Source of the DNA: Thermosulfurimonas sp. F29
GTDB lineage: Bacteria > Desulfobacterota > Thermodesulfobacteria > Thermodesulfobacteriales > Thermodesulfobacteriaceae
Length of the DNA stretch: 64,000 nt
Direction of reading: 5' to 3'
Assembly: GCF_019688735.1 (NCBI RefSeq)
Contig: NZ_JAIFYA010000001.1
Span: forward strand, 62,001-126,000
This document shows positions 12,138 through 62,005 of the stretch, piece after piece (position 1 is the first letter of the stretch; each line of letters opens with the position of its first letter). Below the pieces are notes generated by a model. It saw only the letters and a program-made list of their open reading frames with translations. It was not told the origin of the DNA and did no database searches. The translations under genes were made by a program, and so were the position numbers.

Positions 12138-13337
<1,200 letters not shown>

Positions 13338-15434: not shown

Positions 15435-15476
15435 GGTCCCTCTCTCGCCTCCTTAATTTCAAACATCAAAATAAAC

Positions 15477-15503
15477 GCCCCCGCCTCGGATCTCGCCGGG
15501 GGC
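15477..15503 (-). terminator. Hairpin in the rpsG-fusA spacer, possible internal terminator
   Basis: The minus strand has a 7-bp GC stem (GCCCCCG paired with CGGGGGC) with a 13-base loop that can pair further, followed by GTTTATTTTG at 15476-15467. It lies between the end of rpsG and the start of fusA. As the U-run is interrupted, it could work as a partial terminator or processing site that lowers elongation-factor and downstream ribosomal gene expression relative to S12/S7. This is inferred from sequence alone. Confidence 0.5.
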
Positions 15504-15530: not shown

Positions 15531-16007
<477 letters not shown>

Positions 16008-16018
16008 TCAACTCTCCT

Positions 16019-16390
16019 TTACTTCGGTCTGGGAGCTCCGTACTTGGAGCGGGACTTGCGACGATCCTGCACGCCCGCAGCGTCAAGCGCGCCCCGAATG
16101 ATCTTGTAACGCACCCCGGGAAGGTCCTTAACACGACCCCCGCGCACCAGAACCACCGAGTGCTCCTGCAGGTTGTGCCCGATACCGGGAATGTAGGCCG
16201 TCACCTCGATCCCGTTGGTAAGGCGCACCCGCGCCACCTTCCGGAGCGCAGAGTTGGGCTTCTTCGGGGTGGTGGTGTACACCCTTACGCACACCCCCCG
16301 CTTCTGCGGACAACCCTCCAGGGCCGGCGACTTGGACTTCGACTTTCTCTTCTTCCGCCCGTATCTTACCAGCTGGTTAAAGGTCGGCAT
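16019..16390 (-). CDS. rpsL: 30S ribosomal protein S12
   Basis: A 123-residue decoding-centre protein and first gene of the fused str-S10-spc operon. The start is the ATG at 16390 ([20 protein letters not shown]). The frame is open for another 51 codons upstream, but that stretch contains the promoter and leader hairpin and is not coding. The decoding loop [17 protein letters not shown] and [11 protein letters not shown] are wild type, so no streptomycin-resistance substitution is evident. Confidence 0.98.
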
Positions 16391-16414
16391 CTTCCTTCCC
16401 CGAATAAAAGTCTT

Positions 16415-16449
16415 AAAAAAACCCCTTCGGGACCCCGTCCCGCAAGAGG
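16415..16449 (-). terminator. Terminator-like hairpin in the rpsL leader (possible attenuator)
   Basis: On the minus strand, CCTCTT-G-CGGGAC, a GGG loop, then GTCCCG-AAGGGG form a stem of about 12 pairs (one G bulge, one G-U) directly followed by seven T residues at 16421-16415. It sits between the predicted transcription start (about 16451) and the rpsL ATG (16390). It has the form of an intrinsic terminator read by the ribosomal operon itself, so it may attenuate the operon. Alternatively it is a 5'-end stabilising hairpin. Confidence 0.6.
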
Positions 16450-16457
16450 CGACCTCA

Positions 16458-16486
16458 TATATACCGGGCCTTCCCGCCCTTGTCAA
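16458..16486 (-). promoter_or_regulatory. Sigma-70-type promoter of the str-S10-spc operon
   Basis: A perfect -35 TTGACA (16486-16481), 17-bp spacer and -10 TATATA (16463-16458) on the minus strand, followed by TGAGG. The predicted start is near 16451, giving a leader of about 60 bases to rpsL. A second, weaker candidate (TTTCCA, 18-bp spacer, perfect TATAAT at 16550-16545) lies just upstream on the same strand. Confidence 0.8.
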
Positions 16487-16536
16487 GCGGGCTAAGGGCT
16501 TTCCGCCCGCACCAGATCGGTGGCCGAGAGGATAGC

Positions 16537-16565
16537 TTGCCAAAATTATACCTCTTTTATATAAA
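16537..16565 (+). promoter_or_regulatory. Promoter of the NSS transporter operon
   Basis: Plus strand TTGCCA (16537-16542), 17-bp spacer, TATAAA (16560-16565). Transcription would start near 16572, after an ATG at 16568, which supports the downstream ATG at 16601 as the true transporter start. It overlaps the second candidate promoter reading towards rpsL, so the two divergent operons may compete. Confidence 0.6.
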
Positions 16566-16600
16566 AAATGGAAACCTCCCTACACGCGAGGAGCCGGACA

Positions 16601-40654: not shown

Positions 40655-40680
40655 TCTGCCCCCTCCCGAAAAAACCTCAA

Positions 40681-61405: not shown

Positions 61406-62005
61406 ATGGACGAAGGCATCCTGGAAACGCTGAAAAAGGAGGCGGAGGAAAACCCCCGCTCCATATTCGCACATCATCGTCTGGCTCTGGCCTATTTCCG
61501 GGCCGGGCGCCTCAAGGAGGCCAAGGAAACGCTCAAAAAGATCCTTGAACTCGATCCGCAGAACTTCGAGGCCCTTACCAATCTGGGAACGATCCTGGCC
61601 CGGGAGGGAGAGCTTGAGGAGGCCCGCAAGGCCTTTGCCCTGGCCCTCAAGATCTATCCCGCCTCTCCGGAGGCCCTCACCAACATGGGCCTCATTTCCT
61701 TCGAGATGGGGGATCTCGAGGCGGCGGAGAGGTACTATCGGGAGGCCCTGCGCGTGAAACCGGAACTTCCCGCGGTGTGGGTTAACCTCTCCACGGTGCT
61801 CATCGCCCGCGAGGCCTATCAGGAGGCCGAGAAGGCCTGTCGCCGGGCCCTGGAACACGACCCCGGCTTCTCCATGGCCTACAACAACCTGGCCGTGGCC
61901 CTCTTCTACCAGAACCGGAGGGAGGAGGCCCGGGAGGCCCTCCATCGGGCCAAAGAATTGGGCTACCCGGTAAATCCGGAATTCGAAAAAATGGTCCTTT
62001 CATGA
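61406..62005 (+). CDS. TPR-repeat protein
   Basis: 199 residues almost wholly built of tetratricopeptide repeats, for example HHRLALAYFRAGRLKEAKET, FEALTNLGTILAREGELEEA, PEALTNMGLISFEMGDLEAA and SMAYNNLAVALFYQNRREEA: about five units. It has no signal peptide or membrane span, so it is cytoplasmic. The stop overlaps the next gene as ATGA. It presumably serves as a protein-binding scaffold; the partner is unknown. Confidence 0.88.
   Translation: MDEGILETLKKEAEENPRSIFAHHRLALAYFRAGRLKEAKETLKKILELDPQNFEALTNLGTILAREGELEEARKAFALALKIYPASPEALTNMGLISFEMGDLEAAERYYREALRVKPELPAVWVNLSTVLIAREAYQEAEKACRRALEHDPGFSMAYNNLAVALFYQNRREEAREALHRAKELGYPVNPEFEKMVLS

Follow-up and report, generated by a model that had tools for sequence, protein, structure and literature searches.

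How ribosomal protein operons are tuned outside E. coli and B. subtilis is poorly known. Premature intrinsic terminators in the 5' leader of rpsL have been published as the rpsL-leader attenuators, a multiform class (Naville and Gautheret 2010, PMC2965389). The same article cites earlier predictions by Merino and Yanofsky in 24 species, places a further rpsL-leader element between rpsG and fusA in streptococci, and reports that each of its rpsL-leaders could be given an antiterminator structure. A structured leader, the rpsL motif, has been described in Candidatus Pelagibacter ahead of a fused str-S10-spc series and proposed as a control point (PMC2704228), and control of the E. coli str operon involves an S7 target located between rpsL and rpsG (PMC10931766). 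In E. coli as well, the greA leader GraL carries an intrinsic terminator very near its promoter, producing RNAs of 37–59 nt and ending about two thirds of greA transcripts, with termination stimulated by GreA; terminators this early can therefore work in cells (PMC6829880).

Here we analysed the rpsL leader in a stretch of 64,000 nucleotides from Thermosulfurimonas sp. F29 (NZ_JAIFYA010000001.1, positions 62,001 to 126,000), hereafter the window, where all the leader features lie on the minus strand. The original prediction, a near-consensus promoter followed virtually at the predicted start by a 12-bp stem and a run of seven T, and then by rpsL, was borne out by sequence reading and folds. 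A TTGACA -35 element (16481–16486, 6/6 to the consensus) is separated by a 17-base spacer from a TATATA -10 element (16458–16463, only 4/6 to TATAAT), from which we infer a transcription start at about 16451 ± 3 (16448–16454). The stem starts 8 bases after the -10 element, within about 3 bases of the predicted +1, and the hairpin (16422–16449) has 12 pairs, including a single U-G, to which a G-U may be added as the 13th. Its 5' arm reads CCTCTT (16449–16444), a bulged G (16443) and CGGGAC (16442–16437), followed by a GGG loop (16436–16434) and a 3' arm of GTCCCG (16433–16428) and AAGGGG (16427–16422). A T7 tract (16415–16421) abuts the 3' side of the stem, and RNA release would fall at about +31 to +37. 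The stem (16449–16422) and T7 together form the signature of an intrinsic terminator, on the same strand as rpsL and less than 300 nt from its first codon. The ribosome-binding region GGGGAAGGAAG (16391–16401) includes the Shine-Dalgarno-like GGGGAAGG at 16401–16394, and the rpsL ATG stands at 16390, 24 bases after the T run.

Minimum-energy and centroid folds of the leader both retained the terminator stem, preceded by at most about 3 nt counted from the predicted start. The folding energy was ordinary for the base composition (53 of 200 shuffles folded as well), and when the 120-base leader was shuffled 400 times with dinucleotides preserved, a hairpin of dG ≤ -17.5 with at least six T in the next eight bases arose 7 times. 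The main case against a chance origin lies in conservation among relatives. Neither the promoter nor the hairpin was listed by a simple consensus scan of the window, because the -10 element lacks the final T and the stem is bulged, and the result of that scan was not used as evidence on the leader. Rfam returned no match over the whole window at the gathering score, and none, ribosomal leaders included, at the rpsL leader of L001 with E ≤ 2.

The locus is comparable to the published rpsL-leaders in carrying a premature intrinsic terminator in the rpsL 5' leader, in the lack of sequence or structure conservation across lineages, and in the presence of an element between rpsG and fusA (PMC2965389). 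It differs from them in that the stem begins at the predicted start, leaving almost no upstream RNA for an antiterminator, and in that the design recurs ahead of a tRNA-tuf operon (PMC2965389). It shares with GraL the intrinsic terminator very near the promoter, a partial read-through (here proposed) and the lack of a classical antiterminator (here considered likely); unlike GraL, in which about 18–19 nt precede the stem, 0–3 nt do so here from the predicted start, and the gene, the lineage and the sequence are different (PMC6829880). Like the Pelagibacter motif, it leads an rpsL-headed fused str-S10-spc series, whereas that motif, as described, is a multi-stem junction without a terminator and the present element is a single hairpin (PMC2704228). 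In promoter-loaded antitermination by Q and AlpA, polymerase likewise has to pass a terminator just downstream of the promoter (PMC9371919). Possible differences are that inspection by eye of the first approximately 30 bases of the rpsL leader revealed nothing like the -10-like pause element of those systems, and that no binding element obviously common to the spacers of rpsL and tRNA-tuf was recognised (PMC9371919). We thus could no longer maintain that such a leader is foreign to the standard picture of the str operon, as rpsL attenuators (PMC2965389) and the structured Pelagibacter leader (PMC2704228) are both published. Our literature search found no start-site terminator described at rpsL of this group or at the tRNA-tuf operon. 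The kind of element is therefore already known, and its start-site position, at rpsL here and at tRNA-tuf, is a new variation within the literature searched. Loosely, the rpsL element may be placed with the multiform rpsL-leaders and may work like GraL. Overall, we favour, with somewhat better than even confidence, its reading as an attenuator in the form of an intrinsic terminator close to the promoter.

Downstream of this leader lies a fused operon on the minus strand, at a scale of 30 genes, running from rpsL, rpsG, fusA and tuf to the S10/spc genes, secY, adk and a map-like ORF (gene names were assigned by eye from translations). The gene for S12, rpsL (16019–16390), is followed after a gap of 14 bases (16018–16005) by rpsG for S7 (15531–16004), and the operon copy of tuf, for EF-Tu, lies at 12138–13337; a second tuf copy occurs elsewhere in the genome, behind a tRNA-Tyr/Gly/Thr leader. 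This genome also uses ordinary intrinsic terminators, as at the gene end at 40674 on the minus strand. A second terminator-like hairpin, GCCCCCG...CGGGGGC then GTTTATTTTG, occupies the rpsG-fusA gap (15467–15503, minus strand); it was also observed in relatives (L001–L030), with a high conservation in the neighbouring family f3 as AGAATGGGGAGAC...GTTTCCCCATTCT then TTATGTTTGA. The gene content of the operon bears on an autogenous control, by which a ribosomal protein (S7, L4, S12 or another) would bind the hairpin and drive termination or block translation, in the manner of L4 at the S10 leader of E. coli. All the usual ribosomal-protein regulators are encoded in the operon, which includes rplD. 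The E. coli S7 target is larger than a 14-base gap could hold, so that there is no space for an E. coli-like S7 site between rpsL and rpsG and control would have to lie elsewhere. S7 has moreover been discussed as a possible ligand of the published rpsL-leaders (PMC2965389). Against this reading stands the lack of any match between the rpsL leader and the Rfam ribosomal leaders mentioned above, to which the comparison of relatives adds.

The order was sampled through 41 genomes, of which 37 had an S12 match, and all 37 rpsL leaders were read. The hairpin and its T tract were recovered in all six genomes of the window's genus (g1) and in the single genome of the sister genus (g4), with the T tract directly abutting the stem and, in the folds, the hairpin at the same promoter offset in all seven. 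Searched over 30 family genomes, a covariance model built on these seven leaders (R1) recovered the rpsL leader in 7, with E ≤ 5e-9, and gave no further match below 0.01; the matches at E 0.01–1, scattered over 26 genomes, were treated as noise. In the neighbouring family f3, individual folds revealed a differently spelled hairpin at the same distance from the promoter in 8/8 leaders. Under a stricter terminator criterion (dG ≤ -9 plus a T tract), 7/7 g1/g4 leaders and 6/8 f3 leaders passed and the other two f3 leaders failed; T tracts in f3 are interrupted. In the rpsL leaders of the order, TTGACA recurs about 18 bases ahead of the -10, which in all 15 hairpin-bearing leaders reads TATATA or TATAAA with the spacing unchanged.

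The hairpin is missing in 22 of the 37 leaders, including all 21 from g2, g5 and g6 (one of the leaders read, L117, with a GTG start, was read by eye), and a single f2 leader has only a short stem without T tract. The terminator criterion flagged 2 of 20 g2/g5/g6 leaders (L017 and L111), both with hairpins that span the -35 element and are therefore outside the transcript. Beyond the order, 0/13 rpsL leaders from elsewhere in the phylum passed the criterion. Among 80 wider loci from named genomes, the start motif was found in 64. Of these, 11 had a sense-strand terminator, compared with 7 for the opposite strand and a rate of 16% in shuffles, and we therefore claim no general enrichment in rpsL leaders. 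The conservation of the stem on which the original prediction depended thus held for the genus, for the sister genus and, as a replacement hairpin at the same place, for f3, and gave way over the larger part of the order. As separate observations, the g2/g5/g6 leaders (L014, L016–L018, L020–L030, L111–L117) carry just after the start a CTTGTCAA-like box that mirrors the -35 region TTGACAAG, a repeat that is perfect over 9 bases in L017 and might be an operator.

Within g1 and g4, 96.7% of the stem positions were paired, and the compensatory changes sought in related genomes amounted to two pairs with changes on both sides, a weak signal equalled by 38 of 500 shuffles; so few double changes are due to the closeness of these genomes. 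For f3, the consensus fold computed by RNAalifold had no pairs with double changes, since MAFFT misaligned the 3' arms, and the f3 folds were accordingly read one by one, as weaker evidence. In the g1/g4 stem, U-G occurs at four positions and is more frequent than any other pair at one. Stem pairs held as G-U favour an RNA structure over a DNA palindrome, as G-U makes no palindrome in DNA. This weighs on the idea that the inverted repeat is an operator at which a repressor binds, the RNA having no role. Palindromes that cover a start site often serve as operators, a layout that the present repeat fits, and in f3 the rpsL promoters (L008–L019) also bear, by eye, a GGCCG-TTATATAACNG-CGGCC inverted repeat around the -10 element. 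Such an operator would nevertheless leave the T tract unexplained, and with many stem positions held as G-U we find this explanation scarcely credible. A GGNCCGT motif before the -10 of the f3 rpsL promoters was also observed in several g1 promoters.

The attenuator reading gains from a second locus of the same genome. The tRNA-Tyr/Gly/Thr-tuf operon (C3:147936–147999 in the own genome; L140:1377–1535, minus strand) has a promoter directly followed by a perfect intrinsic terminator, in which a hairpin of 12 pairs begins at the predicted start and the T tract ends 2–3 bases before the tRNA (9 in L154). Of the 30 genomes read, 18 have this hairpin and its T tract (6 g1, 1 g3, 1 g4, 9 f3 and 1 f2) and the other 12, from g5 and g6, lack them; the T tract abuts the stem, at T5–T6, in 17 of the 18 leaders. 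Once two identical leaders were dropped, 16 of the 18 were used for pair counts: 99.5% of the cells were paired, 8 of the 12 pairs had changed on both sides, and G-U pairs occurred at three positions, with no shuffle out of 500 as good on four of five measures and 240/500 on the fifth, further pair types. A covariance model of the hairpin (R2), searched over 198 genomes of the phylum, matched 59 of them at E ≤ 0.01. Among 30 loci inspected, only two, both within the order, lie before tRNA-Tyr; the remaining 28 were taken as ordinary terminators. A weak Rfam sX4 match at the tRNA-Tyr leader was rejected, as it aligns to the tRNA gene and not to the hairpin.

The presence of the hairpin in the rpsL and tRNA-tuf leaders agreed in 26 of the 27 genomes for which both leaders were read (both present in 14, both absent in 12, with f2 as the exception), a count drawn from related genomes and representing far fewer independent events. 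With the same design and a nearly identical distribution, we read the two as a single control layer over both EF-Tu operons. Their stem sequences are unrelated and, between g1/g4 and f3, the rpsL stem has been wholly replaced, both of which speak against recognition of the hairpin by a ribosomal protein. Two operons with unrelated stems favour a generic regulator over a sequence-specific ribosomal protein as the common one, and autogenous control, conceivable for rpsL alone, is quite improbable. The original prediction of a terminator used as a control point ahead of the rpsL operon therefore stands for the terminator-shaped, conserved element, and not for the ribosomal-protein ligand, as the tRNA-tuf operon shares the design with an unrelated stem.

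Both leaders also bear on a purely stabilising role, in which the hairpin would shield the end of the mRNA against decay, the T tract being no more than an A/T-rich spacer. Stabilisers classically take the form of a strong hairpin at the very 5' end, which fits the position observed here, and some f3 T tracts are poor. The abutment of T tract and stem in 7/7 g1/g4 rpsL leaders and 17/18 tRNA-tuf leaders is however unaccounted for by a spacer, and RNase P would anyway cut the leader off the tRNA operon transcript, so that we rate a stabiliser as highly improbable.

The surroundings of the two leaders raise a further alternative, a one-way insulator, in which the hairpin would block read-through from an upstream gene while polymerase fresh from the promoter would somehow be resistant. 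A CBS-domain-like gene in the same orientation as rpsL reaches to within a few bases of the -35 element in L002, L004 and L007, with no other terminator visible, and a same-strand qmoC-like gene ends just upstream of the tRNA-tuf -35. By contrast, the window, L005, L006 and L019 keep the hairpin despite a divergent transporter gene upstream, from which there would be no read-through to stop; the hairpin is missing from L014, L016, L017 and L114, where the gene that ends upstream is co-directional; and a terminator inside the leader sits in the path of its own promoter. An insulator is for these reasons unlikely. In the window, an apparent remnant of the CBS-domain-like gene that precedes rpsL in L002, L004 and L007 was observed at 16490–16540, its place upstream of rpsL now being taken by a divergent sodium symporter-like gene. 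Overlapping divergent promoter-like sites, plus-strand TTGCCA-N17-TATAAA for the transporter and minus-strand TTTCCA-N18-TATAAT, occur at 16540–16575, a stretch conserved in L005 and L006.

The rarity of start-site terminators was evaluated in the window's own genome, where 73 distinct strong promoter-like sites were retained and a terminator was sought in the next 90 bases. Some terminator match followed 9 of the 73, and a compact hairpin of about -20 kcal/mol starting no more than 10 bases from the -10 element followed only three, those of rpsL, tRNA-tuf and speD, a gene of spermidine synthesis. The speD leader (C3:266442–266516, minus strand) has a TTGACA-N16-TATCTT promoter then AAGGGUGGCCAU...GUGGCUACCCUU AAUUUUUU near the start, in a sequence nearly invariant in the seven g1/g3/g4 genomes read (L304, L310–L316). 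Rfam gave no match at the leader in the four speD loci searched (L213, L229, L314 and L316), and we propose this leader as a candidate polyamine- or SAM-related attenuator. The rRNA leader (L152:1370–1410) bears at its predicted start a 7-bp hairpin, GATCGGC/GCTGATC, that leads into TCTTTGAAAACTG, which resembles boxA and is conserved in most of the relatives read; with a short T run only, and not kept in L188, this hairpin was not counted as the same element. An identical promoter-like 28-mer, TTGACAAACAAGAAAATCATGCTACTAT, was found at C1:49895, C1:52431, C1:513195, C2:1497 and C2:674600, and its five copies probably represent a repeated mobile element.

Under the attenuator reading, polymerase would start at about 16451 and the first approximately 28 bases of RNA would fold into the hairpin, whereupon the T7 tract would release a fraction of the polymerases as RNAs of about 35 bases, ending at about +31 to +37, and only those reading through would transcribe rpsL and the fused operon. 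As the stem begins at the start site, almost no upstream RNA is available for an antiterminator and there is no room for a leader peptide, making a classical antiterminator unlikely. With so little RNA before the stem, polymerase state is a more likely determinant of read-through than a ligand-switched fold, and would reflect elongation factors of the NusA, NusG or GreA kind or the NTP supply, hence growth rate. The sequences themselves show the position, the hairpin, the T tract, their conservation and the second copy of the design, from which termination, its partial extent, its regulation and the nature of the regulator are inferred. Taken together, the rpsL and tRNA-tuf hairpins probably serve as a brake on making the protein-synthesis machinery. 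A broader proposal, which we consider doubtful, is that a small 'regulon' of start-site terminators governs protein-synthesis capacity in the order, covering both EF-Tu operons together with speD, the latter in the window's genus and two sister genera, through hairpins unrelated to each other. Termination would then be decided on the first approximately 35 bases of RNA, from which only polymerase speed, elongation factors and NTP level could be read, providing a growth-rate control that needs neither a ligand nor a leader peptide nor an antiterminator RNA.

If true, a start-site attenuator placed before two protein-synthesis operons would reduce their control to read-through over about 35 bases, and the published rpsL-leaders and GraL would become instances of a wider strategy.
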